In this document: piece after piece, positions 6,775-48,731 of the stretch
Layout of the letters: the number at the start of each line of letters is the position of its first letter
Numbering within the stretch: position 1 is the stretch's first letter
NCBI RefSeq assembly: GCF_029212645.1
Contig: NZ_JARGND010000014.1
Location: forward strand, 1-64,000
DNA: 64,000 bases
Origin: Vannielia sp.
GTDB lineage: Bacteria > Pseudomonadota > Alphaproteobacteria > Rhodobacterales > Rhodobacteraceae
Direction of reading: 5' to 3'
The notes under the pieces: generated by a model
What the model saw: only the letters and a program-made list of their open reading frames with translations
Database searches by the model: none
What the model was told of the DNA's origin: nothing
Program-made: the position numbers and the translations under genes

Positions 6775-7973
<1,199 letters not shown>

Positions 7974-14081: not shown

Positions 14082-15134
14082 ATGATGCAGCAAAACGCTG
14101 TCAGACCTGCCGATATTCGTTCCTTTGTAACGGACAACCCGAAACTGCGCGCCCGTGACGCGGCAGATGCGCAAGGCATCACCGAGGCGCAGCTCGCCGC
14201 CGCCAGCGTAGGCCATGGCGCGACCCGAATTGCGGCCCATCCCGACCGGATCATTCCCGCCGCGGAACGGCTGGGCGAGGTCATGGCCCTGACCCGTGTC
14301 GATGCCTGCGTGCACGAAAAGATCGGGGAGTACGGCAACTACCATCCGGGCGCTCATGCCGCGATGACCCTGACCGAAGAGATCGACCTGCGCATCTTTC
14401 CGTCGCATTGGGTGCATGCCTTTGCTGTCGAAACCGAGTCTGAGCAGGGCCCGCGCCGGTCGTTGCAGATTTTCGATGCAGCGGGCGACGCGGTGCACAA
14501 GATCCACCTTGGCGATGGCTCGAACCATGACGCCTGGGCCGGGCTCGTGGCGGACCTGGCCGTGGCAGACCAGTCCGACATGCAGGCTGTCGCGCCGCGC
14601 AAACCGGTCGAGCCGCCGAAACTGCGCGAGGACAAGCGCGACATCTTGCGCGAGGAATGGGAGAAACTGACCGATACGCACCAGTTCCTGCGGCTGTGCT
14701 CGAAGCTCAAGATGAACCGGCTGGGCGCCTACCGGATCGCCGGTGCACCCTGGGTGCGACAGCTCGATCCAGGTGCTGCCGATGCGATGCTTCAGGCCGT
14801 CTGCGATGCGGGGATCGAGGTGATGATCTTCGTCGGCAATCGCGGCTGCATCCAGATCCACACCGGCCCGATTCACACGCTCAAACCCATGGGGCCCTGG
14901 CAGAACGTCATGGACCCCGGGTTCAACCTGCATCTTCGGCTCGACAAGGTGGTTGAGATCTGGGCCGTGGAAAAGCCCACGCAACGCGGCCCTGCCGTGT
15001 CCGTCGAAGCCTTCGATGCAGAGGGCGGGCTCATTTTCCAGGTGTTTGGTGTTGGCAAGGAGGGTCGCGACACCCGTCCCGCTTGGGGCCGGATCGTCGA
15101 AACGCTTCCGACCCTCTCTGAGGTTCCGGCATGA
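14082..15134 (+). CDS. hmuS: Hemin-degrading factor HmuS/ChuX-type
   Basis: Duplicated HemS-like halves: GEVMALTRVDACVHEKIGEYGNY ... IEVMIFVGNRGCIQIHTGPIHTLKPMGPWQNVMDPGFNLHLR. Confidence 0.93.
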   Translation: MMQQNAVRPADIRSFVTDNPKLRARDAADAQGITEAQLAAASVGHGATRIAAHPDRIIPAAERLGEVMALTRVDACVHEKIGEYGNYHPGAHAAMTLTEEIDLRIFPSHWVHAFAVETESEQGPRRSLQIFDAAGDAVHKIHLGDGSNHDAWAGLVADLAVADQSDMQAVAPRKPVEPPKLREDKRDILREEWEKLTDTHQFLRLCSKLKMNRLGAYRIAGAPWVRQLDPGAADAMLQAVCDAGIEVMIFVGNRGCIQIHTGPIHTLKPMGPWQNVMDPGFNLHLRLDKVVEIWAVEKPTQRGPAVSVEAFDAEGGLIFQVFGVGKEGRDTRPAWGRIVETLPTLSEVPA

Positions 15135-16027
15135 AATCGAGCAACAAGAAGAACACGCCCTTCAAGGCCATAATAATGTCAATGTTCAGCGCCTTGATCG
15201 CGCTGCCCGTCAGCGCGCAGCAGAGCGCGGACCTGACGAACCCCCATGCCGATGTGCTCTCCATCGGGGGGTCGGTGACCGAAATCGTCGCCGCCCTTGA
15301 CCAGCAGCATCGGCTGAAGGCGCGCGACACCACGTCCAGCTATCCACCTGACGTGATCAACCTGCCCGACGTGGGGTACATGCGGTCCCTGTCGCCCGAG
15401 GGCGTATTGTCAGTTGGCCCGTCTCTGATCCTCGCTGAAGAAGGCGCTGGACCACCCGAGGCGCTCGAAGTGATCCGCGCAGCGGATGTGGACTTTGTCG
15501 AGGTGCCCGATGCGCTGACGCCGGAGGGCATTATGCGCAAGATCGAGATCATAGGCGATGCCCTTGGCGTGCCTGACAAGGCCGATGCGCTGGCCGCTCA
15601 AGTTGAAACCGCCCTGTCCACGGCACTCGACGATGCAGAGCGCCCGGAGTCCGACAAGAAGCGCGTGCTTTTCGTCCTGTCCACGCAAGGCGGCAGGATC
15701 AATGCCTCAGGCACCGGAACCACAGCGGATGCGCTGATCCGCATGGCGGGGGGCGTGAATGCCGTTACCGATTACGAAGGATACAAGCAGATCACCGACG
15801 AGGCCGTCGGACTAGCCGCACCGGACGTGATCCTGATGATGGACAGGGGCGGTGATCATGGCGCGGCAGATGACGAGTTGTTCGAGATACCTGCGATCAA
15901 GCTGACGCTGGCAGCACAGACGCGCTCGGTGGTGCGGATGGACGGCCTGCTGATGCTGGGCTTCGGGCCGCGCTCGGCTGAGGCGGTGCGCACGTTGAAC
16001 GAAGCGCTCTACGCGCCGAAGACCTGA
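15131..16027 (+). CDS. hmuT: Heme ABC transporter substrate-binding protein
   Basis: Signal peptide; VLSIGGSVTEIVAALDQQHRLKARDTTSSYPPDVINLPDVGYMRSLSPEGVLS. Confidence 0.93.
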   Translation: MKSSNKKNTPFKAIIMSMFSALIALPVSAQQSADLTNPHADVLSIGGSVTEIVAALDQQHRLKARDTTSSYPPDVINLPDVGYMRSLSPEGVLSVGPSLILAEEGAGPPEALEVIRAADVDFVEVPDALTPEGIMRKIEIIGDALGVPDKADALAAQVETALSTALDDAERPESDKKRVLFVLSTQGGRINASGTGTTADALIRMAGGVNAVTDYEGYKQITDEAVGLAAPDVILMMDRGGDHGAADDELFEIPAIKLTLAAQTRSVVRMDGLLMLGFGPRSAEAVRTLNEALYAPKT

Positions 16028-16030
16028 GCC

Positions 16031-17098
16031 TTGATTGCTGTGACCGAGATCGATGCCGTTCCGCGCGACCGGCTGTCCCATGCCCGGACCTGGCATTGGA
16101 TCCTCGCCGGTGCGCTGGCGCTGGCCTGCATCGCCAGCCTTCAGGTCGGCGCGACGGACGTGGCCCTGTCAACGATGCTGGCCAAACTGGCGAAGGGCGA
16201 GGCGCTGAGCCAGATGGAGCGCGTGGTGCTGTTCGACATTCGCCTGCCGCGGCTCGTCATGGGCGTGCTGGTTGGCGCGGCGCTGGCGGTGTCCGGCGCG
16301 GCGATGCAGGGGCTGTTCCGAAACCCGCTTGCGGATCCGGGCATCGTAGGCGTCGGTGCGGGGGCGGGCCTTGGCGCGATCCTGGCGATCGTGCTGGGCG
16401 CGCTGCTGCCCGTCTGGATGATCGATCTGACCGGCAATCAACTGGTGCCCTTCGCGGCCTTCCTCGGCGGATGGGGGTCGACCCTCCTGCTCTATCGCGT
16501 TTCGACGCGGCATGGACGCACCTCTGTTGCGACGATGCTCTTGGCGGGCATCGCGCTTGGCGCGCTGGCCGGGGCCCTTTCAGGCATCCTCGTTTACATC
16601 GCGGATGACCGGCAGTTGCGCGACCTGACCTTCTGGGGGCTTGGCTCGCTCGCCGGGGCAAGCTGGGCCAAGGTGCTCTCCGCCGGGCCGTTGATCCTAC
16701 TGTCCATCAGCGCCGCGCTGATGCTGGGCCGGGGACTGAACGGGTTGGCGCTCGGCGAGGCGACGGCCGCCCATATCGGCATCGACGTGCAGCGCATGAA
16801 ATCCATCGCAATCCTTGCCGTGGCAGGCGCCACCGGCGCGGCGGTCGCTGTGTCAGGCGGGATCGGTTTTATCGGCATCGTCGTGCCGCATCTCTTGCGT
16901 CTGGCCTCCGGCCCGGATCATCGGACGCTGCTGCTCAATTCCGCGCTCCTGGGCGCGATCCTGCTGATCCTTGCCGATGTGATCGCCCGCGTGGTCATCG
17001 CGCCCGCGGAACTGCCCATCGGAATCGTGACGGCGGTGCTGGGCGCGCCGGTGTTTCTGTGGATCCTGCTCAAGCGCCGGGGGCTGGTAGAGCTATGA
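16031..17098 (+). CDS. hmuU: Heme ABC transporter permease (FecCD family)
   Basis: RLPRLVMGVLVGAALAVSGAAMQGLFRNPLADPGIVGVGAGAGLGA; GGIGFIGIVVPHLLRLASGPDHR; TTG start. Confidence 0.93.
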   Translation: MIAVTEIDAVPRDRLSHARTWHWILAGALALACIASLQVGATDVALSTMLAKLAKGEALSQMERVVLFDIRLPRLVMGVLVGAALAVSGAAMQGLFRNPLADPGIVGVGAGAGLGAILAIVLGALLPVWMIDLTGNQLVPFAAFLGGWGSTLLLYRVSTRHGRTSVATMLLAGIALGALAGALSGILVYIADDRQLRDLTFWGLGSLAGASWAKVLSAGPLILLSISAALMLGRGLNGLALGEATAAHIGIDVQRMKSIAILAVAGATGAAVAVSGGIGFIGIVVPHLLRLASGPDHRTLLLNSALLGAILLILADVIARVVIAPAELPIGIVTAVLGAPVFLWILLKRRGLVEL

Positions 17099-17898
17099 GT
17101 CTGACTGCCAATAATATCCGCGTAAGCTATGGCAAGCGCGAAGCGCTGCGCGGGGTGAGCCTGACCGCCCTGCCCGGCGAGGTCACCGCCATCGTCGGCC
17201 CTAATGGGTCTGGTAAATCCACCCTGTTAGGGGCGATCACCGCCTCGCTGCCCTTTCACGGCCGTGTTGGTCTGAACGGGCGCGACATCGGTACGCTCAA
17301 ACCATGGGACCTGGCCGCCCAACGCGCCGTGTTGCCCCAGGCGTCGCGTCTGGCCTTTCCCTTCACCGTTGTCGAAGTGGTCCGGCTTGGATTGCAATCG
17401 GGCACCGCCGGGGACCGCCCCGAGGTGCCGATGCAGGCGCTGGCCCGCGTTGGACTGGCGCATTACGCAAACCGGACATTCCAGGAACTGTCCGGTGGCG
17501 AGGCGCAGCGCGTCATGCTGGCCCGCGTTCTGGCGCAGGTCTGGGCCCCGGTCGAGCACGGCGAGCCGCGCTGGCTTTTGCTGGATGAGCCTGTCTCAAG
17601 CCTCGACATCGGGCACCAATTGCAGGTGATGGAGATCCTCCGCGATTTCGCCCGCGCGGGGGGCGGCGTGGTTGCCGTGATGCACGACCTGAACCTGACC
17701 GCGCTTTCTGCCGACCGCGTCGCGGTGCTCGCCGAGGGGCAGCGCCTGGCCTTCGGAGCGCCGGGCGAGGTCCTGACCGATGATATCCTCTCGCGCGCCT
17801 ATGGCTGTGCCTTACGGGTTTCTGCCCCACCGCCCGAAACCATCCCTTACATCCTGCCCCATGCAGCATCAGCCCAAAAGGAACCTGCATGCGTCTGA
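17095..17898 (+). CDS. hmuV: Heme ABC transporter ATP-binding protein
   Basis: GPNGSGKSTLLGAI Walker A, LSGGEAQRVMLARVLAQ signature, LLLDEPVSSLDIGHQ Walker B. Confidence 0.93.
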   Translation: MSLTANNIRVSYGKREALRGVSLTALPGEVTAIVGPNGSGKSTLLGAITASLPFHGRVGLNGRDIGTLKPWDLAAQRAVLPQASRLAFPFTVVEVVRLGLQSGTAGDRPEVPMQALARVGLAHYANRTFQELSGGEAQRVMLARVLAQVWAPVEHGEPRWLLLDEPVSSLDIGHQLQVMEILRDFARAGGGVVAVMHDLNLTALSADRVAVLAEGQRLAFGAPGEVLTDDILSRAYGCALRVSAPPPETIPYILPHAASAQKEPACV

Positions 17899-18638
17899 GC
17901 GCCCTCTTTTTGGCCCTTGCCCTGCCCGCGACGGCCAATCCCTCGGCGGATATCGTCGTCCTCAGTGAGGTGCATGACAACCCGGACGCGCATCGTGGAC
18001 AGGCCGCCGCGTTGCGAGAGCTGCGCCCTACCGCTGTCGTGTTCGAGATGCTGACCGCAGAAGAAGCGACGCGTGCCGACGCCGACCGCAGCCGGATCGC
18101 CGCCGCGTGGGAAGCCAGCGGCTGGCGAGATTTTCCAATCTATGCACCAATCTTCGAGGCCCTCGGAGCGGCCCGCATCGTTGGGGCGGCGGCTCCGCGC
18201 GAGGCAGTCCGCAGCGTCTACAGCGACGGGCCCGCGGCCCTGTTCGGCGCGGAGGCAGCCCGCTATGGCCTCGACGAAGCTCTGCCGGACGAACAACAAC
18301 AGGTGCGCATGCAGATGCAATTCGAGGCGCATTGCGAGGCCATGCCGCTCGAAATGATGGCCGGTATGGTCGCGACCCAACGCTACCGCGACGCGGTTTT
18401 TGCCCGTGCCGCGCTGGCGGCGCTGGAGACCTATGGACCACCGGTCGCCATCATCGCCGGAAACGGTCACGCCCGCACCGATTGGGGTGTGCCCGCAATG
18501 ATTGCCAGGGCCGCACCCGAGGTCACGACCCATGCAATCGGTTTTGTCGAAGATGACACCGGCATGCCTTTCGACGAGATCCGCATCGTGCCGCCGGCCG
18601 AGCGGGACGATCCCTGCCAATCGCCGACATTCAACTGA
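17889..18638 (+). CDS. ChaN-family iron-regulated protein
   Basis: Signal peptide; IVVLSEVHDNPDAHRGQAAALRELRPTAVVFEML; VAIIAGNGHARTDWGVP typical of ChaN. Confidence 0.85.
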   Translation: MRLSALFLALALPATANPSADIVVLSEVHDNPDAHRGQAAALRELRPTAVVFEMLTAEEATRADADRSRIAAAWEASGWRDFPIYAPIFEALGAARIVGAAAPREAVRSVYSDGPAALFGAEAARYGLDEALPDEQQQVRMQMQFEAHCEAMPLEMMAGMVATQRYRDAVFARAALAALETYGPPVAIIAGNGHARTDWGVPAMIARAAPEVTTHAIGFVEDDTGMPFDEIRIVPPAERDDPCQSPTFN

Positions 18639-19222: not shown

Positions 19223-21595
19223 TTGATAAGAGGAAGAAATTTGTCCCAAAATCCACAATACAAATCCGCCGCCGCAACCCCGCCTGTCTGGGTGGTTATG
19301 GCTGTGTTTCGCCCCACCCCCGACCACCTTCGCGCACAGATCCAAAGCATCGCGGCGCAAAGGCACTTGCCCGCCGGGCTGGTGCTCGTCATCGCCGATG
19401 GCACCTCCGCCGATCTGGCCGGCGACATTGCCGCCGAGGCGGGTATCACCGCCGTTCTGGTCACCCCCCGGCACGAGCTTGATGCCGTCCGCGCCTTTGA
19501 GGCCGGGCTTGACCGCGTGCTTGAGCTGGCCCCCGCCGAGGCCCTCATCGCCCTGTCTGACCAAGATGATATTTGGCACCCCGATCGCCTTTTGCGCGGT
19601 GTGCAGGCCATGGCCGATCCCGCCGTCATGCTCTCCCACGCCGATGCGCGGCTGGTCGATGACACGGGCGCCGAGATTGCTGCCTCGATGTTCGCCTTCG
19701 AAAAGCGCCACCATGCCCCCGGTCTGCGTGGTCTGCTCTACCAGAACAACGTCACCGGGATGACAGCACTGTTCCGCGCCAACGTCGCCCGCCTCGCGCT
19801 GCCTTTCCCGCCGCAATCGGGGGTGCATTTCTACCACGATCTCTGGTTGGCCATGGTCGCCGCGGCCCTTGGCAAGATCACCTTTATCAACACCCCGCTG
19901 GTTGATTACCGCCAGCACCAATCCAACGCGATTGGCGCGGTTGATCGCCGCTCCGCCACGCTGCCCCGCAAGTTGCCCAGCCGCAAGGGGATGACCAATT
20001 GGTTCATGCGCGAGGCCGGCGCCTACGGTCTTGCGCGGTATCTTGCCCGCAGCCTTCAGGCGCGGCTGTCCAGTGCTGTCACCAGCGGCACACTTGCCCA
20101 TGGCGTGGCCCAAACCGCCCCGTTGCGCCCCTACCTGCGCACGCGCAGCACCGGGTTTGCGCACCTTTGGGATGGCACCAAGCTGCTGTGCACCGGCCAT
20201 CCCCGGCTGGCCCGTCTGGCCAGCGGGCAGGCGATTGTAACGCTGGGGCGGTCCTTCTGGTCGCTGCGTCTGGCCCTCTCTGAAGGGATGCGCGCGGCGA
20301 CCGAGCGGTTTGACACGCGGATCTATTCCCTGTCTCCCGGCGTCATCCCACCGCATATCGACAGCGCAGGCAATGTTGCAGCCGCCACGTCAGACCCCGC
20401 CGAAGCGCATATTGATCCCCGCAAGCACCCCTCGTGGACGCCTGTCTTTACAGCCGATACCGCCGCGCTCAACCTTCTGGTGCCCACGCTCAATCCGGCC
20501 GAAGTTTTTGCCGGGGTGGCCACCGCGCTTGATGTGGGCATCGGGTTGGCCGCGCTGGGCCACCCGGTGCGACTGATCGCCACCGACCTGCCCATCGCCT
20601 CCCATGCCGCCTCTCGCCGCTTCCTCACTGGCCGCATCCCCGCCGATGCCGCCCCCGGAACCGCCGACCGGCTCTCCCTCGCCTGCGGGCTGCACGGCAC
20701 GGGCGAGCGCAAGGACTCCACCGTCACCATCCCCTCGCACAAGGACGATGTTTTTTTGACCACCGCCTGGTGGACAGCCCATGTGGCGCGTGAGTTGATT
20801 TCCACGCATGGCTACACCCAGCCCCGCTTTGCCTACCTCATCCAGGACTTCGAGCCCAATTTCTACGCATGGGGCGCGCCCTTTGCCGAAGCCATGGCCA
20901 CCTATTCGATGGAGTATGTGCCGGTGTTCAACACCGCGCTGCTGCGGGATTATTTCGTGTCCCAAGGCCTCGCCTCGCCCACCGCTCTCACCTTTCGCCC
21001 CTCTATCGAGGTGCCAAACTACAGCTCCGGCACCCGGCCCAGCCGCACCGGCCCACGCCGCCTGGCGCTCTATGGTCGCCCGGAGGTTGAGCGCAATATG
21101 TTCCCCATGGCCATCGAGGCGCTCTCGTCTTTCCTCGAGGCCGAGGGGCTCGGCCCCGATGATATCGAGTTGGTCTCGATAGGCCTGCCCCATCCGCCAG
21201 TAAAGCTGCCCGGTGGGCTGCGCCTTACCAGCCTCGGCAAGCTGCCGTGGGAGGATTATCCGGATTACCTGCTCACCGTCGATCTGGGCCTGTCGCTGAT
21301 GTTTTCGCCCCACCCGAGCCACCCGCCAATCGAGATGGCCGCCTCCGGCGTGCGCGTGGTGACCAACAGCTTTGGCCCCAAAGACCTATCCAAGCTCAGC
21401 CCGGCGCTCATTTCCGCCGCCCCCACCGCCGAGGCCGTGACCGCCGCCTTGCACCGCGCCTGGGCCGCAGCGCCCGTGACCCAAGCCGAGCGTGAGTTCT
21501 CGCTCGCACCGCTTGGCCTGTCGATGGACGAAATGCTCACCGCCCTGTCGTCCGAGATCACCACCCTCGGCCTGCCTCCGGAGCCCGCCACATGA
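19223..21595 (+). CDS. Bifunctional glycosyltransferase: N-terminal GT2 plus C-terminal WsaF-like rhamnosyltransferase domain
   Basis: N-term VVMAVFRPTPDHLRAQIQSIAAQ...LIALSDQDDIWHPDRLLRGV; C-term RFAYLIQDFEPNFYAWGAPFAEAMATYSM...LSLMFSPHPSHPPIEMAASGVRVVTNSFGPKDLS. Confidence 0.85.
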   Translation: MIRGRNLSQNPQYKSAAATPPVWVVMAVFRPTPDHLRAQIQSIAAQRHLPAGLVLVIADGTSADLAGDIAAEAGITAVLVTPRHELDAVRAFEAGLDRVLELAPAEALIALSDQDDIWHPDRLLRGVQAMADPAVMLSHADARLVDDTGAEIAASMFAFEKRHHAPGLRGLLYQNNVTGMTALFRANVARLALPFPPQSGVHFYHDLWLAMVAAALGKITFINTPLVDYRQHQSNAIGAVDRRSATLPRKLPSRKGMTNWFMREAGAYGLARYLARSLQARLSSAVTSGTLAHGVAQTAPLRPYLRTRSTGFAHLWDGTKLLCTGHPRLARLASGQAIVTLGRSFWSLRLALSEGMRAATERFDTRIYSLSPGVIPPHIDSAGNVAAATSDPAEAHIDPRKHPSWTPVFTADTAALNLLVPTLNPAEVFAGVATALDVGIGLAALGHPVRLIATDLPIASHAASRRFLTGRIPADAAPGTADRLSLACGLHGTGERKDSTVTIPSHKDDVFLTTAWWTAHVARELISTHGYTQPRFAYLIQDFEPNFYAWGAPFAEAMATYSMEYVPVFNTALLRDYFVSQGLASPTALTFRPSIEVPNYSSGTRPSRTGPRRLALYGRPEVERNMFPMAIEALSSFLEAEGLGPDDIELVSIGLPHPPVKLPGGLRLTSLGKLPWEDYPDYLLTVDLGLSLMFSPHPSHPPIEMAASGVRVVTNSFGPKDLSKLSPALISAAPTAEAVTAALHRAWAAAPVTQAEREFSLAPLGLSMDEMLTALSSEITTLGLPPEPAT

Positions 21596-22452
21596 CAGAG
21601 CGCCACATCATCCTTCACATTGGGCTGCACAAATGCGGCTCTACCTTCCTGCAACGGGTGCTGATGCAAAACGCCCCTGCGTTGGCCGCGGCGGGGCTGG
21701 CCTATCCGCACAGCGGCACCGGCCACCCCGGCAATGCCGCTGGCGCGCATGAGTTTGACGCCGCGCAGATCGAGGAAATGTTCGGCCATTGCCAGCAGCT
21801 GTTCCTCAGCCACGAAGACCAAATCAACTTCGGCGATCAGGCCCAGCCGTTTTCTCGCGCGGCAGCCTCACTTGGCGCATCGGTAGAGATCCTGTGCTTC
21901 GTGCGCCCTTTCCCGGAGTATATCTTCGGCGATTACTCGCAACAGATGAAGCAACATTATCCAGAGTGGATCGAGGCCCGCGAGGCGTATAAGGGAATGT
22001 CGTTCGAGCAGTTCGTTGGGTCACGCTGCCGTTGGGTGAACCCGGCCAAATGGCTCAACCAGTGGCGCAATGCGCTGCGCCGCTCGCTGGGCGAGGTGCC
22101 TGTCACCGTTGCCAGCCACCGCGACATCCGCGAAACGGTTGAGCCGCTCCTGCCCCCCGGACTGGACCTTGATTGGCACGTTCCCAACCACCTCACAAAC
22201 CCTTCCCTGCGGGCCGAGGATTGCGACCGGCTGGCCGCGATGATCGAAGATTTCGACATACCCGGCGAGGACATCGTGGCCACGTTAAAGGAAGCGCTGC
22301 ATCACACCGGCGGGCCTGATGCAGGCCGCAACGAAGAGCGGATACGGTGGATCGAGGCGCTGTTTCGCCAACAGATCCAGCAGCTATACGATCAATATGG
22401 CTACGATATCAGCACACCGGCTTCCGGCAGGTTTGAGTACGAGGCCGAGTAG
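21592..22452 (+). CDS. Sulfotransferase-like protein
   Basis: LHIGLHKCGSTFLQRVL (PAPS 5'-phosphosulfate-loop-like) near N-terminus; FVRPFPEYIFGDYSQQMKQ. Confidence 0.7.
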   Translation: MTERHIILHIGLHKCGSTFLQRVLMQNAPALAAAGLAYPHSGTGHPGNAAGAHEFDAAQIEEMFGHCQQLFLSHEDQINFGDQAQPFSRAAASLGASVEILCFVRPFPEYIFGDYSQQMKQHYPEWIEAREAYKGMSFEQFVGSRCRWVNPAKWLNQWRNALRRSLGEVPVTVASHRDIRETVEPLLPPGLDLDWHVPNHLTNPSLRAEDCDRLAAMIEDFDIPGEDIVATLKEALHHTGGPDAGRNEERIRWIEALFRQQIQQLYDQYGYDISTPASGRFEYEAE

Positions 22453-22453
22453 A

Positions 22454-23425
22454 TCAGAACTTGCCGATCAGCACCGAAAACCACATCACAGCCGAGCCAA
22501 AAGCCGTTTGCCGGTAAATCCCGGCCTTTTTCAACATCAGGATGCGCCGCACCAGCGGCGCATTGCGGGCTTTTGCGATCGTTTCGAGCACGGCGCGGTT
22601 TTCCGGGGTAAAGCGATGGGCCGAGCGTGACAGCGTATCAATGTTGTCATCCAGCCAGCTTTGATAGGTGCCTTCAAACACCATCTTCAGGCGTTTCCAG
22701 CGGGCACGCCAGCTATCATTCGCGCCGATGAGGTTGTTGTCATGCTGGCGATAAAGCAGCCCCGGCGCGGGGTCATGCATCACACGCCCGCCTGCGCCCG
22801 TGATGATCTGATAAAGCCACCAGTCATGCACCGGCACATCGCCCGCCTCAAACGAGGCCGCATGGGCCAGCCGTGCGGCGGCTTCGTTCAGCACGATCGT
22901 GTTGCCACCCGCAATGTTTTGAACCACCGCGTTGGAAAAGCCCGGCGGCTTGCGGCGCATCGGCGAAACCCGATGGTTCTTCAGGTTTTCATCCGTCACC
23001 CAGCTGCGCGAGTGGTACATCGCCGGAATCCGTGGATCGAGCCCGTCAAACTTGCTGAGGGCGCGGGTTAGCTTGTGGCGCAGCCACACGTCATCCTGAT
23101 CGGAAAAAGCCCAATACCCTTCAGGGCGCACCTCTTGCATCAGATTGAGGAAATTGGCTGCACAGCCCCGGCCCGGCCCGTCAATGCAGGCGATGCGCCA
23201 GCTTTCGGGGTGGTCCTCCATCAACGCGCGGCCACCGTCATCCCGGCCCTCAACGCTGGCAATCAACCTCCAGTTGGGGTGGGTTTGTTCGGCAAAGCTG
23301 TCAATCTGCTCTTCTAGATGATCGCAGCCCTCATAGACCGCCATCAAAATCGTGACCGCCGGCTCCGAGGTGAGCAGGTCAAACGCTTCTGCGTTCTTTT
23401 GCCATTCTAGCGTGGATTGCAGCAT
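22454..23425 (-). CDS. Glycosyltransferase family 2, rhamnosyltransferase-like
   Basis: PAVTILMAVYEGCDHLEEQIDSFAEQTHPNWRLIAS...GYWAFSDQDDVWLRHKL. Confidence 0.88.
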   Translation of the reverse strand: MLQSTLEWQKNAEAFDLLTSEPAVTILMAVYEGCDHLEEQIDSFAEQTHPNWRLIASVEGRDDGGRALMEDHPESWRIACIDGPGRGCAANFLNLMQEVRPEGYWAFSDQDDVWLRHKLTRALSKFDGLDPRIPAMYHSRSWVTDENLKNHRVSPMRRKPPGFSNAVVQNIAGGNTIVLNEAAARLAHAASFEAGDVPVHDWWLYQIITGAGGRVMHDPAPGLLYRQHDNNLIGANDSWRARWKRLKMVFEGTYQSWLDDNIDTLSRSAHRFTPENRAVLETIAKARNAPLVRRILMLKKAGIYRQTAFGSAVMWFSVLIGKF

Positions 23426-23631
23426 GATAGTGGCTCAGGCTCCCTGTTGGCGGGAGTCGGCACAAGTGCGCGCCAAGCCCGCAAGGGCAGCGCTCGCCAA
23501 ATGGTTGCGTAACATTTGCGTCGGGCGACCTGCGGCCCGTTGCCGATTCTTCACTGGTATTCCTGTCATGCCATAGACTGTGGCACGTCCCCAATTAACA
23601 GATACTTAATGCGCATACCTTGCAGGCGCAC

Positions 23632-24789
23632 TCATCTCCAAGTGGAAACACACGGAATCTTGTCAAGGTTGCATCGATCGGCGTATTTCTGCGCAATTTC
23701 CTTAACTTCATCAACCAAACCGCCCTCTAAACGGATTGGATCGAGGCCCAAGCCTATAAAACGGTCATTCGAAACATGCAGGTCGTTCTCTGCGGCTTCA
23801 TTGCGCGGGTTGTCGATAGTGGCAATCTCGCCGCCGGTCATCTCCTGCAACATCCTGGCCAGATCACGCACCCGGTGAGTCTCGGTCATCTGGTTGAGGA
23901 TATTCACGCGCTCGCCCGCTTGCGGCGGGTTGGTCAGCGCCAGTTCAACGCAGCGGCAGGTGTCCTGGATGTGGATAAAGGCGCGGGTCTGGCCCCCGGT
24001 GCCATGCACCGTCATCGGGTAGTTGATCGCCGCCTGCATGATGAAGCGGTTGAGCACGGTGCCATAATCGCCATCATAGTCAAACCGGTTAATCAGGCGC
24101 TCGTCCATCCGGGTTTCATCGGTTTGCGTGCCCCACACGATGCCCTGGTGCAGGTCGGTGATCTTTACCGCGTCATTCTTGTTGTAGAACGCAAAGAACA
24201 GCTGATCCTGGCTTTTCGTCATGTGATAGATCGAGCCGGGGTTGGTGGGGTAAAGGATCTCGGTCTCGGTCTCGCCGTCAGGCGTGGTCATCTTCACCGT
24301 CAGGTAGCCCTCGGGGATCTTCATGCCCGCCGTGCCATACCCATACACCCCCATGGTGCCCAGGTGGACAAGGTGAATGTCCTGCCCGCTTTCCACAATG
24401 GCCGCGAGCACATCATTGGTGGCGTTGAGGTTGTTGCTGACGGTGTAGCGCTTATGCGCACTCGATTTCATCGAATAGGGCGCGGCCCGCTGCTCGGCGA
24501 AGTGGATCACCGCATCGGGCTTTTCGTCCTGAAACAGTGTCAGCAGGCGGTGGTAATGTTCTCCAACGGTGAAGTCATGAAAGCCTATGCGCTTGCCGGT
24601 CAGTTCCTTCCACACGGCAATGCGCTCGCCAATCGGACGGATCGGCGTCAGGCTTTCGACCTCCAGCTCAATGTCGATCTTTCGGCGCGACAGGTTATCA
24701 ACGATGATCACATCGTGCCCAAGGTTGGAAAGGTGCAAGGCCGTCGGCCATCCGCAAAATCCGTCGCCGCCAAGAACGATTACCTTCAT
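23632..24789 (-). CDS. sqdB: UDP-sulfoquinovose synthase (SQD1/SqdB family)
   Basis: MKVIVLGGDGFCGWPTALHLSNLGHDVIIVDNLSRR, VIHFAEQRAAPYSM, LVHLGTMGVYG, YHMTKSQD, TVHGTGGQTRAFIHIQDTCRCVELALTNPPQAGE, NPRNEAAENDLHVSNDRFIGLGL follow plant SQD1 closely. Confidence 0.9.
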   Translation of the reverse strand: MKVIVLGGDGFCGWPTALHLSNLGHDVIIVDNLSRRKIDIELEVESLTPIRPIGERIAVWKELTGKRIGFHDFTVGEHYHRLLTLFQDEKPDAVIHFAEQRAAPYSMKSSAHKRYTVSNNLNATNDVLAAIVESGQDIHLVHLGTMGVYGYGTAGMKIPEGYLTVKMTTPDGETETEILYPTNPGSIYHMTKSQDQLFFAFYNKNDAVKITDLHQGIVWGTQTDETRMDERLINRFDYDGDYGTVLNRFIMQAAINYPMTVHGTGGQTRAFIHIQDTCRCVELALTNPPQAGERVNILNQMTETHRVRDLARMLQEMTGGEIATIDNPRNEAAENDLHVSNDRFIGLGLDPIRLEGGLVDEVKEIAQKYADRCNLDKIPCVSTWR

Positions 24790-24889
24790 GCGCCTCATCC
24801 ATTAAATGTGCTTGTCAGTCGCGCACTTTATGTCCCGCGCCCACACAGAGGGAAAGGAAAACCTGCCCGCAGTGCCAAGCCCAGCCGGG

Positions 24890-25837
24890 TTAGCCCCTAC
24901 GCGTTGCCGTTTTTTCCCCGTACGCCCGCCGAGCGGTATTGTAGAGCACCGTGTCCCCCTCAAACCACGGGGCCAAAACCTCGCGGGCAATGTCATTATC
25001 GGCGGTCAGGGCGCGAATGTCCCCGCGGTTTTCATGCGGCAGCGCCTCGGGCACCGGGCGCCCGATATCCGCAAGGAACCCCTCCAGAAAGCTCAAACCA
25101 TCCTCGCAAAAGCCCACACCGGCAAAGCCTTCCAGCGTTTTGATCGCGCTGTCCACAAAAGCGGGTGTCGCCTCGGCAGTCATCTGAACATTGCGCCCGG
25201 TAAACAGCATCCGGCATTGCATATTGTCGAAATGGGCAAAGCGGCCCTTTTCGTTGGCGCGATCACGCAGTTTGATAATGCTTTCCCGGTCCAGCCATTC
25301 AGTCTCGGCCAGCAATGCGACGATATGAGCATAGCGCTCTTCGTTGTTTCCCTGCCCGGCCAGCGCCTCGCCCCGGTTAAAGCGATCAACCCAGTTGATG
25401 TGGCTTACCAGCCGCTTCCACGGATCGCGCAGCACTGTGATGGGGGCGTAGGCATCGGCCCCCTGCTGCCGGTGCCAGTTATTCCAGGCGATATGCCCGG
25501 TAATGCAATCTGCCTGCACCGGCGGAACCTGCCCGGATTTGATTACCGCGATGTGATATTCGGCATGCGATAGAAAGTTGTCTTCGCCGTAAGCCTGCTC
25601 CAGCACCCGGTTCCAGCTTGAGCCTGCCGTCTTGGGAATATGCACAAAAAGCACCGGTTTCAGCTTACCCTTGGGGGTGAACGGCGCCGGAACCGGAGCT
25701 TCTTGCGCAACCGTGGGGCTTAACGGCGCCGGGACCGGGGCTTCTTGCGCAACCGTGGGGCTTAACGGCGCCGGGGCCGGGGCCTCTTGCGCAACCTTGG
25801 GAGCAAGCCCCAGCCGAAGGAGGATTTTCTGAAGCAC
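24890..25837 (-). CDS. Sulfotransferase family protein with Pro/Ala-rich tandem-repeat N-terminus
   Basis: LKPVLFVHIPKTAGSSWNRVLEQAY PAPS-loop; VLRDPWKRLVSHINWV; N-terminal APAPLSPTVAQE repeats. Confidence 0.82.
   Translation of the reverse strand: MLQKILLRLGLAPKVAQEAPAPAPLSPTVAQEAPVPAPLSPTVAQEAPVPAPFTPKGKLKPVLFVHIPKTAGSSWNRVLEQAYGEDNFLSHAEYHIAVIKSGQVPPVQADCITGHIAWNNWHRQQGADAYAPITVLRDPWKRLVSHINWVDRFNRGEALAGQGNNEERYAHIVALLAETEWLDRESIIKLRDRANEKGRFAHFDNMQCRMLFTGRNVQMTAEATPAFVDSAIKTLEGFAGVGFCEDGLSFLEGFLADIGRPVPEALPHENRGDIRALTADNDIAREVLAPWFEGDTVLYNTARRAYGEKTATRRG
25680..25805. repeat. Three tandem 42-bp repeats inside the sulfotransferase gene
   Basis: Units 25680-25721, 25722-25763, 25764-25805, consensus AACGGCGCCGGrACCGGrGCTTCTTGCGCAACCGTGGGGCTT. 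Confidence 0.95.
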
Positions 25838-25851: not shown

Positions 25852-26754
25852 TCAGTTCAACAGGCGTTTAAGGTAGGTGCCATAGTCGTTCTTGGCAAAA
25901 AGCTTGGCGCGCTCCACCAGTTGCTCACCGGTGATCCACCCCCTGTGATAGGCGATCTCCTCCAAAGAGCCGGTCTGCAAGCCCTGCCGCTTTTCCAGCG
26001 TGCGCACAAAGTTGCCAGCGTCCAGCAGCGAGGCATGGGTGCCGGTATCAAGCCAGGCATAGCCACGCCCCATAAGCTGCACATCCAACTCCCCCGCCTC
26101 AAGATAGATCTCCAGCAGGGTGGTGATTTCCAACTCGCCGCGCGCCGAGGGTTGCACCTGCCTAGCGCGCTCAGGAGCGTTGCCATCCAAAAAGTAAAGG
26201 CCCGTCACAGCGTAATCCGAGGGCGCAACCTCGGGCTTTTCCACGAGCTGGCGCACCTTGCCGCTTTCGTCAAAATCCACCACGCCATAGCGCTCCGGGT
26301 CCGCCACGCGGTAGCCAAAAACCGTGGCGCCGCTGTCTCGCGCGGCGGCTTCCATCAGCATCTCCGGCAGGCCGTGGCCAAAGAAAATATTGTCTCCCAG
26401 CACCAACGCCGATGGGGCCCCGGCCAAAAACTCCTCGGCCAGCAGGTAAGCCTGTGCAAGGCCATCGGGGCTTGGCTGCTCGATATAGGTAAAAGACAGG
26501 CCCCACTGGCTGCCATCGCCCAGCAACCGCTTGAACTGATCGGCATCCTCAGGCGTGGTGATGATTGCAATCTCGCGGATATCCCCCAGCATCAGCACCG
26601 ACAGCGGATAGAAGATCATCGGCTTGTCGTAGATCGGCAAAAGCTGCTTTGAAAGGCCCAAGGTGATCGGGTAAAGCCGCGTGCCACTGCCGCCTGCAAG
26701 GATGATCCCTTTGCGCTTCACGCTTGCACCGTTCTGTCCTGTCTGTGTCATCAC
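25852..26754 (-). CDS. rfbA: Glucose-1-phosphate thymidylyltransferase
   Basis: [53 protein letters not shown]. Confidence 0.96.
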
Positions 26755-26833: not shown

Positions 26834-27577
26834 TCAGCCTTCGGTGGCAGACCGCTCATAAATCGGGTGGGTATAGTCCGTTAGCGGGTTGCGACGGCCA
26901 AGTGATTTGCTGGCCGAAGCCCTTATCGTTTGCGAGTTGTTTTGCCGCCGTTTGAACAGCACCGACTCGGGCACAACCTTATGAAATTTGCCCGCGGCCA
27001 CCGTTTCACAGTTCCAGACCCAATCCTCATAGGCGTAGCCAGCCTCGATATCGCGATCACAAAACGGGATCTCATGGTAAATCGCCGTGGGGCATACGCA
27101 AAGCGCATCCCAGTAGTTGGCGATCCGCAGCAGATCGGGGCGAAACGCGTCGCTCTCCTGATCAACATGGCAAAAGATCGTGGCCTGCTGCTCGAAGAAG
27201 TAGTTATAGGCCGGGTGGGCGATGTGGGTTTCGGGCGCACCATCAAGGAAATCCAGCGCCTGCACCAGCCAGTCCTCGCTCCACAGATCATCGGCATCAA
27301 GGAACGCGGTGTAGCGGCCATTTGCCTTGGCCACCGCCTCGTTGCGCACCTTGCCCTGATCGCCGTGATCATAGGCTTCAAACGCCACCGCGTCCTTGCG
27401 ATGCGCTTCAAAGACCGCATGGGTGAGCGGGTTGGGGCGGTCCAGCACCAGCCGGGCCTCTACCGCGTGGCCAGCGGCGCGGGCGGCATCAATCGCGGCC
27501 CAGAAACTGCGCAGCGAGGCCACGGCAAGCCGGCCCTCCCGGTGGCCGGTGATGATGCAGGTCAGATCACAACTCAT
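26834..27577 (-). CDS. Glycosyltransferase family 2 (GT-A)
   Basis: LTCIITGHREGRLAVASLRSFWAAI...KVRNEAVAKANGRYTAFLDADDLWSEDWL. Confidence 0.85.
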   Translation of the reverse strand: MSCDLTCIITGHREGRLAVASLRSFWAAIDAARAAGHAVEARLVLDRPNPLTHAVFEAHRKDAVAFEAYDHGDQGKVRNEAVAKANGRYTAFLDADDLWSEDWLVQALDFLDGAPETHIAHPAYNYFFEQQATIFCHVDQESDAFRPDLLRIANYWDALCVCPTAIYHEIPFCDRDIEAGYAYEDWVWNCETVAAGKFHKVVPESVLFKRRQNNSQTIRASASKSLGRRNPLTDYTHPIYERSATEG

Positions 27578-29828
27578 GGCGCTTCAACATCCCCTCGATC
27601 TCGGCCTCATAGCGCGATTCGGCAAATGTCGCGGCAACACGCTCGGCCAGCGCATCGGCCTTCTCTCGCGCCCCCGCAGGATCAGCCGTGGCTTGCTTGA
27701 GCGCCTTAGTGTAGGCGTCAATGTCGGTGAAATCCTCGATCAGCCAGCCGGTGCTGTCGTCCAGCATCTCGCCAATACCGCCCAGATCGGGCGCGATGAT
27801 CGGCAGGCGGGCCGCCGCCATATCCAGCAGGATCGTGGGCAGCCCATCCCACTGCGCGGTGTAAAGAAAGGCCGAATAGGGCGTTTCAAGCACCTCTTGC
27901 AGGGTGCTGTAGGTGCCCTTCTCAATAATGTTTTCCGGTGGATCAAAATCTGGCAGGCGGGCCTCGGAGAGCACCGCCTTGCCGTAAACATCAAAGGTGA
28001 TCTGCGGATTGGCGCGGGCGATCTCCACAAGGATATCCACCCGCTTTTGCCGGTCAAACCGCCCCGCCCAAAGCACCCGCTTTGGCGCATTGCGCCCCGC
28101 CACCACGGCGCGCACGCCGCTGTCGCTGGCGGGGGTGTGAAGCGCCAGCACCTCGGCCCCTTCGGCCCCCTCAGCATTGATCACACCATAGCCAAAACGC
28201 TCGGAAACGTCCCGCGCCAGCGCCTTGGTGTCGGTCAGCAGCACATGGTGGTGATTGCAGGTGTGACGCAGCCATTGGATCGGGTAGCCAACCCGGTCGC
28301 CATCCGGCGTTTCGTCCCATGTGAAAAGGTAGGTCACCACCTTCATCTCGCTCGCCAACTGGCGGCCAAAAGCCTCCAGCGTCTCCCACATGAGGCGGCT
28401 GTTGACGTTGATCACCGCCTGCGCGCCACAGCCCCTGAGCAGGTCAATCAGCGCCCGCTGGCGTTGCTCCTCGCTCAGATGTTCAATCAGCGTCGACAGG
28501 TTGAGGCGATCAATCTCATCGGGAAACCAGCCAATGTACTCCGCCTCAGAGCTATCGGTGGTGATGACCAGAATATCCTGCGGCCGCCGCACCCGCGCCA
28601 GGGCGGTCGCAAAGATCGAGGCCACCCGGCTCGCGCCCGACATCCGCACATGCGGCACCGCCACGATATAGCGATACCGCCTGCCGCCCAGCGCCTCGCG
28701 GATCGCCTCAACGGCATCGGCAGGGGCCTTGGCCGAAAGGGTTGGCGAGGTTGTCATGCGCTTTTCGGGTGGCATGGCAACCATCGGATCAAGCGCCTTT
28801 GCGGCATCAAGCCGGTCTTTCATGGCGCCGGGCTCGCTGAAGCTGTTGAGGATCTGCGCTTCGCGCACGCTCACCGCACGGCGCCAATGCTCCCTATGGC
28901 CGTGGCGTAGAAAGTCCAAAAACGGATTGGCGGGGTTGCTTGCCAGATCGCGGTTTTCCTTCAGGTAGAAAGACACCGAAAACTCCGCGCAGGGATCGCG
29001 CCCCTCGATCCAGCCCACGGTGGCAAAATGGAGCAGCGGATCGGTGATGTTGGCAGGCAGATCGGGGTTGGTGGCGCGGTAATAGTCCGGATCAAAATGC
29101 GCGCGCATCAGGTCCAGGTCGGCGCTCCGAGGGAGCCGCGCCTCCACCACAATCGGGCGGCGCGCACCGGCCTCGTCATCGCCTATCTCTGCGGTGGACA
29201 CCATCGGCAGCGTTACATACTGGGGCGCGGACGACTCGGCGCTGATGCCGGTGAGATGCAGCCATTTCTCCTGCGGGTCTTCTCCTCCGGCCTCTATCCC
29301 CGCGTGGGAAATGAAGTGCAAAAAGGGGTTCACCGCAACCGGGTCAAGATCGGGGTTCAGGCCACACCACTGCTCTGCATCAAACCACAGGGCCGCGCGC
29401 CGCCCCTCGCGCCAGCCTGCCTTTAGATAATGCTCACGCGCATCCATCCCATGCCCGGCAACATCGGGGTTTTGTTCCAGGTAGGAAACCGGATCAAAAA
29501 CGCTGTCAAACGCGGCGGTCAGCTTGCCAAGCGGTTGCTCGGCCAAACGGCCCTCCAACGTGGGATCATCGGCGCTTTTGCCCTCAAGGAACACCAGCAG
29601 CGCCGGGTCCTGACGGGTGCGGCGCCGCTGTTGCGGGCTGAGCAGGGTCGCGGCATCAAACCACGGCGCGGGCGGGCGGCCTTCGCGCCAGCCAGAGGCC
29701 ATGTAATGATCCAGCGGATCAAGGCCCGCAATCGCCACATCCGGATTTTGGCTCAGGTAATAGGCGCCATCAAACGCGCGCCGCAGCAGGGTTTCGTTGA
29801 CCGGTTCCGCCTTGCTCACCTGCCCCAA
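27567..29828 (-). CDS. GT4-like glycosyltransferase with N-terminal NPD/GWREGR repeats
   Basis: Repeats YYLSQNPDVAIAGLDPLDHYMASGWREGRPP / YLEQNPDVAGHGMDAREHYLKAGWREGRRA / YYRATNPDLPANITDPLLHFATVGWIEGRDP; C-term RVLWAGRFDRQKRVDILVEIA...TILLDMAAARLPIIAPDLGGIGEML. Confidence 0.85.
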   Translation of the reverse strand: MGQVSKAEPVNETLLRRAFDGAYYLSQNPDVAIAGLDPLDHYMASGWREGRPPAPWFDAATLLSPQQRRRTRQDPALLVFLEGKSADDPTLEGRLAEQPLGKLTAAFDSVFDPVSYLEQNPDVAGHGMDAREHYLKAGWREGRRAALWFDAEQWCGLNPDLDPVAVNPFLHFISHAGIEAGGEDPQEKWLHLTGISAESSAPQYVTLPMVSTAEIGDDEAGARRPIVVEARLPRSADLDLMRAHFDPDYYRATNPDLPANITDPLLHFATVGWIEGRDPCAEFSVSFYLKENRDLASNPANPFLDFLRHGHREHWRRAVSVREAQILNSFSEPGAMKDRLDAAKALDPMVAMPPEKRMTTSPTLSAKAPADAVEAIREALGGRRYRYIVAVPHVRMSGASRVASIFATALARVRRPQDILVITTDSSEAEYIGWFPDEIDRLNLSTLIEHLSEEQRQRALIDLLRGCGAQAVINVNSRLMWETLEAFGRQLASEMKVVTYLFTWDETPDGDRVGYPIQWLRHTCNHHHVLLTDTKALARDVSERFGYGVINAEGAEGAEVLALHTPASDSGVRAVVAGRNAPKRVLWAGRFDRQKRVDILVEIARANPQITFDVYGKAVLSEARLPDFDPPENIIEKGTYSTLQEVLETPYSAFLYTAQWDGLPTILLDMAAARLPIIAPDLGGIGEMLDDSTGWLIEDFTDIDAYTKALKQATADPAGAREKADALAERVAATFAESRYEAEIEGMLKRHEL

Positions 29829-29835
29829 CCCTTCG

Positions 29836-30876
29836 TCAAACCGTTACGCCCAGCCGCTGGCCCACACCGTCGCGCGCCCGCAACCCCTGCCACCAGGCCT
29901 CGTTGTCGAGATACCAGCGCACCGTCTTTTCCAGCCCTTCCTCCAGCGTGACCGATGGGTGCCAGCCCAGCTCGGTCGCAATGCGGGTCGGGTCGATGGC
30001 GTAGCGCAAATCATGGCCCGGACGGTCGGTCACATAGGTGATCTGCTCGGCATAGGGCCTGGCACCGGGGCGCAACCTGTCTAGCGCCGCGCAGATGGTG
30101 CGCACAATGTCGATGTTGCGCGCCTCATTCTCGCCGCCAATGTTGTAGCTGCGCCCGATCTCGCCCTTTTGGAGCACCGTCAGCAGCGCATCGGCGTGAT
30201 CTTCCACATAAAGCCAGTCGCGCACATTTTCGCCCGCGCCGTAAACCGGAATGTCCTTGCCCTCCAGCGCGTTCAAAATGACCACCGGGATCAGCTTTTC
30301 GGGGAAGTGATAAGGCCCGTAGTTGTTGGAGCAATTTGTCAGCACCACCGGCAGCCCATAGGTCTCATGCCACGCCCGCACCAGATGGTCAGAGCTGGCC
30401 TTCGAGGCGCTATAAGGGCTGCGCGGATCATAGGGCGTGTCTTCGGTAAACTGGCCTTCTGCGCCCAGCGAACCATAAACCTCATCGGTGCTGATATGAT
30501 GAAATCGAAAGCCCTCGGGCCGCCCCGCATCCTGCCAATAAGCGCGCGCGGCTTCGAGCAGATGGAAGGTGCCCAGCACGTTGGTTTCGATAAAGGTTGC
30601 CGGGCCATCAATCGAGCGGTCCACATGGCTCTCGGCGGCCAGGTGCATGATCGCATCGGGGCGGTGCGCGGCCAATACCTCATCAAGCGCGGCACGGTCG
30701 CGGATATCGGCCTGCACAAAGCTGTATCCCGGCGCATCGGCCACGCTGGCCACGTTTTCAAGGCAGGCGGCATAGGTCAGCGCATCGAGGTTCACCACCT
30801 CATGCCCCGCCGCGACCGCTTGGCGCACCACGGCCGAGCCGATAAAGCCTGCGCCCCCTGTGACCAACAGCTTCAT
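29836..30876 (-). CDS. rfbB: dTDP-glucose 4,6-dehydratase
   Basis: [91 protein letters not shown]. Confidence 0.97.
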
Positions 30877-31442
30877 ACTGAACGCTCCCAGTTAAACGGG
30901 CTGTCAAAACCCTCAAAACCCGGCGCCGCCTCGTCCTTGGCCGAAAGGCACGGCACCGCACCGCCAAGGCCCCAGTCAATGCCGATTGCAGGATCATCCC
31001 AGATCAGCGCACCCTCGGTCTCGGGGGCGTAGTCATCGGAACATTTGTAGATGATCTCGGTGTTGGGCTGGCGGGTCACGAACCCATGCGCAAACCCTGG
31101 CGGAATCCACAGCTGCACGCCGTTTTCCGCCGTCAGATCCTCCCCCACCCACTGCCCGTAGGTGGGCGATCCCTTGCGAATATCCACCGCCACGTCAAAC
31201 AGCGCCCCACGGCCACAGCGCACGAGCTTGGCCTGCGCCCTGGGTGGCGCCTGAAAATGCAACCCCCTCAGGGTGGGCGCGTCCACGCTGACAGAGTGAT
31301 TGTCTTGCACAAAGTCCGCTTCCAGACCAAGCGCCGCCAGCTTGTTCTTGGCATAGGTTTCGGCAAAAAAGCCCCGGTTGTCCCCGTGACGAACCGGCGT
31401 AATCCTATAGACGCCGGGCAATGCCGTTTTTTCAACCTTCAC
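30873..31442 (-). CDS. rfbC: dTDP-4-dehydrorhamnose 3,5-epimerase
   Basis: [46 protein letters not shown] start proposed at 31442 (track ORF starts at 31538). Confidence 0.92.
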
Positions 31443-31563
31443 GATTCGCGCGTCCTTCTGGCCATTGCCCGCAAACTCTGTGATTTGCACGAATTTCGGG
31501 TTGTGGCGGTCCTTAGCAGGTAGGCAGGGCACTGTCACCTATGCCCATTGCGCTTTCGAGCTA

Positions 31564-32418
31564 TCAAGACAACTCGCGCAACACGCGCGCCAGCCCTTCG
31601 CGCCAATCCGGTCGAGGCAGGCCAAAGGCGGCTTCGGTGGCGCTGCAATCGAGCCTTGAGTTGGCCGGTCGCGCCGCCGGGGTGGGGAAATCGGCGCTTG
31701 TGATCGGGGTCACCTCGCAGACCACATCCGCCTGCGCAAAGATCTCTCGCGCAAAAGCCGCCCAGCTTACATCGGGCGCCCCGCTGAAATGGTAGGTGCC
31801 TGCCTTATGCGGTGCCTCGCACAGCACCCGCGCCATACGGATTGCAGCGCTGGCAATATCACCCGCCCAGGTTGGCCCGCCGTGTTGATCGTCTACAATC
31901 GCCAGCCGCTCCCGCTCGGCACCAAGCCGCAGCATGGATTTCACGAAGTTTCCGCCATGCGCCGAAAACACCCAGGAGGTGCGCATCACCGCCGCCGCGC
32001 CGCCTGCCTGCGCAATCGCCACCTCTCCGGCCAGCTTTGAGCGCCCATAGGCGTTCACCGGTGACACCCTGTCGCCCGGGGACCATGCCGCCTCGCCCGT
32101 GCCATCAAACACGTAGTCGGTCGAAATATGCACAAACGGCACGCCCCTGGCCGCGCAAGCCTCTGCCATCGCGCCCGGCGCTTCGCCGTTGATCACCGTT
32201 GCCAGCGCCTCTTCGGCTTCGGCCTTGTCAACGGCGGTATAGGCGGCAGCGTTCAGCACCGCGTCGGCTGTGCTGGCGGCAATCACGGCGGCACAGGCCG
32301 CAGGATCACTCAGATCACAGTCGCCACGCCCAAGCGCCTGCACCTCAAGCCCAGCGCCCGCCCATGCCAGCACCTCGCGCGCCACCTGGCCGGTCTGGCC
32401 AAACATCAAGAGCTTCAC
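31564..32418 (-). CDS. rfbD: dTDP-4-dehydrorhamnose reductase
   Basis: MKLLMFGQTGQVAREVLAWA; VLNAAAYTAVDKAEAEEALA; VHISTDYVFDGTGEAAWSPGDRVSPVNAYGRSKLAGE. Confidence 0.96.
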   Translation of the reverse strand: MKLLMFGQTGQVAREVLAWAGAGLEVQALGRGDCDLSDPAACAAVIAASTADAVLNAAAYTAVDKAEAEEALATVINGEAPGAMAEACAARGVPFVHISTDYVFDGTGEAAWSPGDRVSPVNAYGRSKLAGEVAIAQAGGAAAVMRTSWVFSAHGGNFVKSMLRLGAERERLAIVDDQHGGPTWAGDIASAAIRMARVLCEAPHKAGTYHFSGAPDVSWAAFAREIFAQADVVCEVTPITSADFPTPAARPANSRLDCSATEAAFGLPRPDWREGLARVLRELS

Positions 32419-33329: not shown

Positions 33330-33710
33330 CGGCGCACCGCCCCAAGGCCACGCGCTTGCAACTCTACAGTTATCGCTGCCCTGTCCAAGGTCCGCATTCT
33401 GCCGGTGCCCTCGCTTGTTCCCGGTCGCGTGATCCCGGCGGTTAAACAGCAAAATCGGGCCAAAGGTAAAGCCCAATCCCCGTGCCCTGGCGGCACCCCG
33501 CCTGCCCCATTCCCGGTGGTCTGGATGAGCTGCGACCGTCCCTTACCTGTGCGCCACTTGCCCCCAAATGGATCGCAGGCTGGAACGGCCGTCTGCATCA
33601 TCATCGAGGTCAGCTATGCCCTTCCGCTACGGCAGCGGCGTGGAAACACCGGGGCAATTGTACGGCATTTGCCACCAATCGCGCAAATGGGGGCAGATTG
33701 TTGCGCGAGC

Positions 33711-35759: not shown

Positions 35760-35932
35760 TCGTTTACCCTCGCAAATACCGGTTTGCCCTGTCCGACCTT
35801 CAATGCGCTTTTGCGGCGCAGAAAGTCAACTTGTGCAGCAGTGTTTCCCCAGATGCGCCTTATTTCGGCCCCACCCATGCGGCCTATATGACAACAGCTT
35901 TCGGGTGGGGATCCGAAGCACTGAGGTAACCG

Positions 35933-46934: not shown

Positions 46935-46952
46935 TTTTGTCCTGCCCGGCTC

Positions 46953-48728: not shown

Positions 48729-48731
48729 GCC

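Follow-up and report, generated by a model that had tools for sequence, protein, structure and literature searches.

UDP-sulfoquinovose (UDP-SQ) synthases (EC 3.13.1.1) have been described in sulfolipid and in glycan synthesis, and sulfoquinovose (SQ) itself as the head group of photosynthetic sulfolipid and a constituent of some archaeal N-glycans. SQD1 of Arabidopsis (PDB entries 1qrr and 1i24), an NAD- and UDP-glucose-binding enzyme with the fingerprint [ST]MGxnYx3K (PMC8987622), serves the production of sulfoquinovosyldiacylglycerol (SQDG) in the chloroplast, and the sqdB gene of the sqdBDC operon is needed for SQDG in Rhodobacter sphaeroides (PMC11346425). Agl3 of Sulfolobus acidocaldarius is an SQD1-type synthase that acts in the formation of a protein N-glycan and not of a lipid (PMC4388408), so that the use of such an enzyme for a glycan is already known. 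The only sources of SQ named in parts of a 2026 review of SQ catabolism are photosynthetic sulfolipid and archaeal N-glycans (PMC12890257), and UDP-SQ synthase appears among the exopolysaccharide sugar genes listed for cyanobacterial bins in a 2025 metagenome study (PMC12555021). No report of SQ in a bacterial polysaccharide (capsule, exopolysaccharide or lipopolysaccharide) was found among the open-access papers searched. The gene described here (23632-24789, minus strand; hereinafter SqdB) is located in a 64,000-base window of the genome of Vannielia sp. that begins at the first base of contig C50 (71,465 bp), in an assembly of 3.2 Mb in 96 contigs that is 87% complete, and its closest named relatives come from Rhodobacteraceae.

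On the evidence of sequence comparison and structural modeling, the product of this gene is a UDP-SQ synthase of the SQD1/SqdB/Agl3 type. The open reading frame spans 23632-24798, but its homologues start where the inner ATG (24789) lies, in agreement with the start chosen in the initial annotation. A search of PDB identifies SQD1 with E = 5e-98 over residues 5-387, with the next family at 1e-10, and the SQD1 structures are the sole strong matches. A fold search started from an AlphaFold model of the protein (pLDDT 74, pTM 0.80; built from 25 sequences) also retrieves SQD1 first, with E = 4e-36, a TM score of 0.83 and 43% identity in the structural alignment; the runner-up enzyme is detected at E = 2e-17, and other sugar-nucleotide enzymes are about 18 orders of magnitude weaker than SQD1. 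These matches rule out an ordinary GalE-type epimerase, which the initial annotation had kept as an alternative, and, together with the conserved residues, bear out its statement that the protein follows SQD1 closely, including the TMG, YxxxK and arginine-containing segments. Specifically, the protein contains T148-M149-G150, Y191-x3-K195, H99 and R104 (residue numbers count from the first ATG, at 24798). In Agl3, mutation of His95, Arg101, Met145, Tyr182 or Lys186 abolishes activity (PMC4388408); the counterparts of these five residues and the [ST]MG...YxxxK fingerprint are invariant in all 93 sequences of the set with at least 70% identity. The best NCBIfam family is UDP-sulfoquinovose synthase, NF041015, with 326 bits, which is below the curated cut-off of 575. 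The SqdB proteins of the sqdBDC type, at 328-332 bits, miss this cut-off as well, so that it is uninformative for this branch of SqdB and was rejected as evidence against the function. Assignment of UDP-SQ as the donor sugar thereby supplied is considered very probable.

By gene families, order and spacing, the UDP-SQ synthase gene lies within a glycan assembly operon. Between 35759 and 22454, twelve minus-strand genes separated by -11 to 234 bp form a single run, in the order ugd, undecaprenyl-phosphate sugar transferase, short-chain dehydrogenase/reductase (SDR) epimerase, rmlD, rmlC, rmlB, GT4 glycosyltransferase, GT2 glycosyltransferase (26834-27577), rmlA, Sulfotransfer_2, sqdB and a second GT2 (22454-23425); the rmlABCD, ugd and glycosyltransferase assignments made at first inspection are confirmed by family profiles (Table 1). 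Two congeners (G003 and G006) keep the arrangement ugd - sugar transferase - SDR - rmlDCBA - sqdB - GT2 (22454), followed by a homologue of the 21592-22452 gene and by a WsaF-GT2 gene, with 87% identity for SqdB, 66-86% for the rml and ugd proteins and 57-58% for the glycosyltransferases. In another genus (G343, locus L198), the order sulfotransferase (49%) - sqdB (84%) - GT2-22454 (56%) is retained, and the GT4 (54%), the GT2-26834 (74%) and RmlA (84%) are encoded within about 13 kb. Compared with Agl3, which shares the essential residues and the use in a glycan, the present gene belongs to a bacterial operon with ugd, rml, undecaprenyl-phosphate sugar transferase and sulfotransferase genes and a GT2/GT4 pair.

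The relationship to the sulfolipid system becomes apparent from the distribution of SqdB within the family. By identity, the homologues form two main groups, type A (76-87%, cut-off 70%), to which the present protein belongs, and type B (63-67%). Type B is found next to sqdD and sqdC in 8 of the 9 sulfolipid-type loci examined, none of which contains genes for phosphoadenosine phosphosulfate (PAPS) reductase, sulfotransferase, DUF4422 or UDP-galactopyranose mutase, whereas neither sqdD nor sqdC is present within 12 kb of SqdB in any of the 33 type-A loci from Rhodobacteraceae. The SqdB proteins of the sqdBDC operons of R. sphaeroides and Sinorhizobium are 63-65% identical to the present one and share its catalytic residues; the difference lies in the surroundings, which here consist of glycan genes, with no adjacent sqdD or sqdC, as the initial annotation had observed, and none elsewhere in the genome. 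Moreover, SqdD was not found in the 87%-complete genome of Vannielia sp. nor in six congeners (99-100% complete), and 19 of the 23 genomes with type-A SqdB in a sample of 397 family genomes, nearly all from different genera, lack it. One genome (G072) carries both types: type B, with sqdD and sqdC, on contig C16, and type A on contig C27, where its neighbors are UDP-galactopyranose mutase, DUF4422, sulfotransferase and PAPS reductase. The check proposed in the initial annotation, for a second sqdB accompanied by sqdC and sqdD elsewhere in the genome, yielded none in a search of the whole assembly. In two loci, L142 (G087:C33:14000-28000) and L143 (G059:C36:184000-198000), sqdD and sqdC are paired but lack a neighboring sqdB; the search of G059 yielded no sqdB homologue anywhere, and its SqdD may use another donor or depend on a missing sqdB.

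The neighbors of type-A SqdB are found again in other genomes much more often than expected by chance. Among the 33 loci, within the same 12 kb, PAPS reductase is encoded in 9, sulfotransferase in 9, DUF4422 in 13, UDP-galactopyranose mutase in 8, rml genes in 8, and the GT pair or its fusion in 10. A second PAPS reductase was detected in 6 of 20 genomes checked, and in each of these six it is the neighbor of SqdB; two of the SqdB-linked reductases, examined in translation, have both the ECGIH motif and the CC...CxxC cysteines. UDP-SQ synthases require sulfite, the product of PAPS reductase, as co-substrate, so this linkage supports the assignment of the synthase independently of homology. Such a dedicated reductase in relatives of the present locus is a further difference from Agl3. 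In two genomes, G252 (C50:184695-185195) and G463 (C11:132012-132512), the sole PAPS reductase found is the SqdB-linked copy, which may also serve sulfur assimilation. In the loci L048, L195, L199, L205, L206 and L210, SqdB adjoins UDP-galactopyranose mutase and, in most of them, DUF4422 genes. In known islands, the galactofuranosyltransferase domain DUF4422 (GT111) accompanies UDP-galactopyranose mutase (PMC12269835), so that the glycans of some relatives probably contain both galactofuranose and SQ. The galactofuranose islands of Klebsiella (WbbM) and Kingella (PamA/PamB) resemble these loci in the DUF4422 and GLF genes, which stand beside SqdB in many relatives, but contain no UDP-SQ synthase as described (PMC12269835), and the window has rml and ugd in place of DUF4422 and GLF.

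The GT2 at 26834-27577 is uncommon, being detected in 20 of the 397 family genomes (E <= 1e-20) and in 3 of 72,556 plasmid records (E <= 1e-5). Fifteen genomes encode both this GT2 and type-A SqdB (Fisher p = 1.2e-17), and in 11 of these the two genes are separated by 2-14 kb (a probability of about 6e-21 if genes were placed at random), although both p-values are too small owing to shared descent and island transfer. In several relatives, the GT2 and GT4 are fused into one open frame (848-949 aa), and the pair is encoded near SqdB also in two metagenome-assembled genomes of Nocardioidaceae/Nocardioides (L105 and L109). Across genomes, the glycosyltransferase is 31-75% identical as against 76-86% for SqdB, so that a single recent block transfer does not account for the linkage. 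This linkage makes the GT2/GT4 pair the best candidate for the sulfoquinovosyltransferase, at roughly even odds.

With regard to the two flanking sulfotransferases of the initial annotation, the one at 24890-25837 holds by family profile: the match to Sulfotransfer_2 (E = 8e-8) covers positions 10-104 of 252, i.e., the N-terminal part of the profile, and the motifs PKTAGSS and RDPWKRLVS are recognizable by eye. For the protein at 21592-22452, this identity could not be established by profile, PDB search or model. Its match to Sulfotransfer_3 is below threshold (E = 0.12), no relative was found in PDB, the single-sequence model (pLDDT 37) is unusable, and the sulfotransferase likeness is limited to the motif HIGLHKCGSTFLQ.

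Taken together, these observations are best compatible with a pathway in which SqdB converts UDP-glucose and sulfite into UDP-SQ, to be used for a surface polysaccharide or glycan that the genes of the operon around it assemble, a prediction from sequence to which, as to the delivery of SQ to a surface glycan, we assign a probability of about 0.7. In such a pathway, sulfate would be activated to adenosine phosphosulfate (APS) and PAPS, and sulfite would be produced by PAPS reductase, in several relatives by the dedicated enzyme encoded next to SqdB and in Vannielia sp. by the general housekeeping enzyme encoded on contig C87. SqdB would oxidize UDP-glucose at C4, eliminate water across C5-C6, add sulfite at C6 and reduce C4 to yield UDP-SQ. 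A glycosyltransferase from the linked genes, the GT2/GT4 pair (26834-29828) and the GT2 at 22454-23425 being the likeliest, would transfer SQ to an undecaprenyl-linked chain that would also hold rhamnose and uronic acid, and the PAPS-dependent sulfotransferase at 24890-25837 may add sulfate esters. The suggestion of an SQ and/or sulfated glycan system instead of a sulfolipid one is supported by the lack of SqdD in the genus, the conserved operon, the PAPS reductases linked to SqdB in relatives and the linkage with the glycosyltransferase. That these genes represent a dedicated bacterial SQ-glycan pathway, comprising PAPS reductase, this SqdB branch and a new sulfoquinovosyltransferase family (GT2/GT4), which spread as a module through Rhodobacteraceae into Actinomycetota, is favored somewhat over the opposite.

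Several observations weigh against a glycan role or favor the possibility that UDP-SQ is made for SQDG or another SQ-lipid via an unlinked SqdX/SQD2-type or other glycosyltransferase, the position in a polysaccharide operon being incidental. The SqdB described here is the only one in the genome, which is one half of what the initial annotation had named as grounds for giving up a glycan role, the other half being loss of SQDG, with the polysaccharide unchanged, upon deletion; but SqdD is absent. Four of the six congeners carry SqdB as an orphan, with no recognizable glycan gene nearby (L044-L047), and the window itself contains no PAPS reductase, the single copy of the genome being the one on C87. 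Orphans of the set with at least 70% identity stand beside housekeeping genes in Maricaulis (GAPDH/PGK), Brevundimonas (aconitase), Paracoccus (a histidine-synthesis gene) and Xenococcus, so that this type of SqdB is not confined to glycans; some of these four genera are described in the taxonomic literature as producers of SQDG. In three genomes (G087, G397 and G427), sqdD is present and type-B sqdB is lacking, and the type-A enzyme may feed sulfolipid in them, in which case its product would be UDP-SQ. In Trueperaceae, SqdB is followed by a GT4 with a weak resemblance to glycolipid synthases. However, a search of the Vannielia sp. genome with this GT4, a weak stand-in for cyanobacterial SqdX/SQD2, gives weak matches. 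The lack of SqdD throughout the genus, the conserved order with rml, ugd and glycosyltransferase genes, and the linkage to one glycosyltransferase family, sulfotransferases and galactofuranose genes that recurs in many genera also argue against a sulfolipid role, which thus appears unlikely.

Two further alternatives concern the enzyme itself and are both much less probable. SqdB might act as a nucleotide-sugar dehydratase or add another nucleophile, so that its product would be some modified hexose other than SQ, such as a 5,6-ene: Agl3 makes UDP-glucose-5,6-ene when sulfite is missing, and Glu147 of Agl3, replacement of which by Ala leaves 12% activity (PMC4388408), corresponds to Val151 in the SqdB protein and to Val in all homologues of this kind. 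However, the sqdBDC-type SqdBs, among them the one required for SQDG in R. sphaeroides, carry the same Val, so that Agl3 Glu147 does not define membership among UDP-SQ synthases and Val at this position was rejected as a sign of altered function; the sulfite-producing reductases near SqdB in 9 of the 33 loci also speak against this possibility, which is considered improbable. Slightly less credible still is a remnant or horizontally gained gene without function in this glycan. The orphans in four congeners would fit such an origin, but SqdB is 84-87% identical within the genus, keeps all catalytic residues and is an intact open reading frame in a tight operon.

The wider distribution of this SqdB type bears on how the proposed SQ-glycan loci arose. 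A genome scan identifies 80 loci at 71-86% identity to SqdB, from many phyla. In a tree obtained with a quick method, with very long outgroup branches, the Rhodobacteraceae group that includes the window (13 rows) has an SH-aLRT support of 98. A clean split of SqdB into a glycan clade and a sulfolipid clade is unsupported, type B being located inside the wider set, which is another point against a glycan-specific enzyme. Given this nesting and the occurrence of the type beyond glycans, a branch of SqdB recruited by glycan islands appears to fit better than a separate enzyme family. In Rhodanobacter sp. DHG33 (L173, 5318-8957), the genes on either side of a second, more SQD1-like SqdB encode an SDR epimerase and a polysaccharide flippase-like protein (PF01943); this may be a further SQ glycan locus, in a gammaproteobacterium. 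In Xenococcus sp. PCC 7305 (L119), the sole SqdB found at E <= 1e-30 is of the present type and not the usual cyanobacterial one.

Table 1. Predicted features of the SqdB operon and adjacent genes in the Vannielia sp. window.
Feature	Coordinates	Strand	Basis
UDP-sulfoquinovose synthase, SqdB/SQD1/Agl3-like SDR	23632-24789	-	profile, PDB match, residues, fold match
Sulfotransfer_2-family sulfotransferase	24890-25837	-	PF03567, 33.1 bits (cut-off 22)
GT2 glycosyltransferase, candidate sulfoquinovosyltransferase component	26834-27577	-	family profile; co-occurrence and linkage with type-A SqdB
GT4-type glycosyltransferase, 11 bp overlap with GT2 26834-27577	27567-29828	-	family profile
GT2 glycosyltransferase downstream of SqdB	22454-23425	-	family profile; position conserved in G003, G006, G343
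RmlA, glucose-1-phosphate thymidylyltransferase	25852-26754	-	TIGR01207, 451 bits
RmlB, RmlC, RmlD (dTDP-L-rhamnose synthesis)	29836-32418	-	family profiles
SDR nucleotide-sugar epimerase	32415-33476	-	family profile
Bacterial sugar transferase, initiating undecaprenyl-phosphate glycosyltransferase	33711-34367	-	PF02397
UDP-glucose dehydrogenase (Ugd)	34407-35759	-	family profile
GT2 and WsaF (N- and C-domain) glycosyltransferase	19223-21595	+	family profiles; adjoins SqdB operon in G003 and G006
286-aa protein, possibly sulfotransferase-like, HIGLHKCGSTFLQ motif	21592-22452	+	kept in G003 and G006 at 54-56%
YjbF and YjbH (group 4 capsule/exopolysaccharide proteins)	38534-41415	-	family profiles; further upstream of operon

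Next to the operon, the open reading frame 35756-36457 (minus strand) is probably not a gene, since this strand matches no family and the plus-strand frame 35933-36568 encodes a CAP-domain protein. Elsewhere, the window contains a heme uptake set at 14082-18638 (plus strand) and 11842-13884 (minus strand), with HemS, a periplasmic binding protein, a FecCD permease, an ABC ATPase, a ChaN-like protein and a TonB receptor; an N6/N4 DNA methylase with a RAMA domain (CcrM-like) at 6867-7973 (plus strand); and, at 46203-50159 (minus strand), consecutive genes for a proteasome-like protein, a transglutaminase-like protein, an Alpha-E domain protein and a circularly permuted ATP-grasp protein.

The recurrence of SqdB beside glycosyltransferase and sulfite-making genes suggests that these bacteria put SQ into their surface glycans. 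If so, heterotrophic, including marine, bacteria would be a further source of SQ besides photosynthetic sulfolipid, adding to a major organosulfur pool; the cell surface would carry an acid-stable sulfonate instead of a sulfate ester; and with the GT2/GT4 pair there would be a specific candidate for a sulfoquinovosyltransferase whose acceptors are sugars and not lipid.

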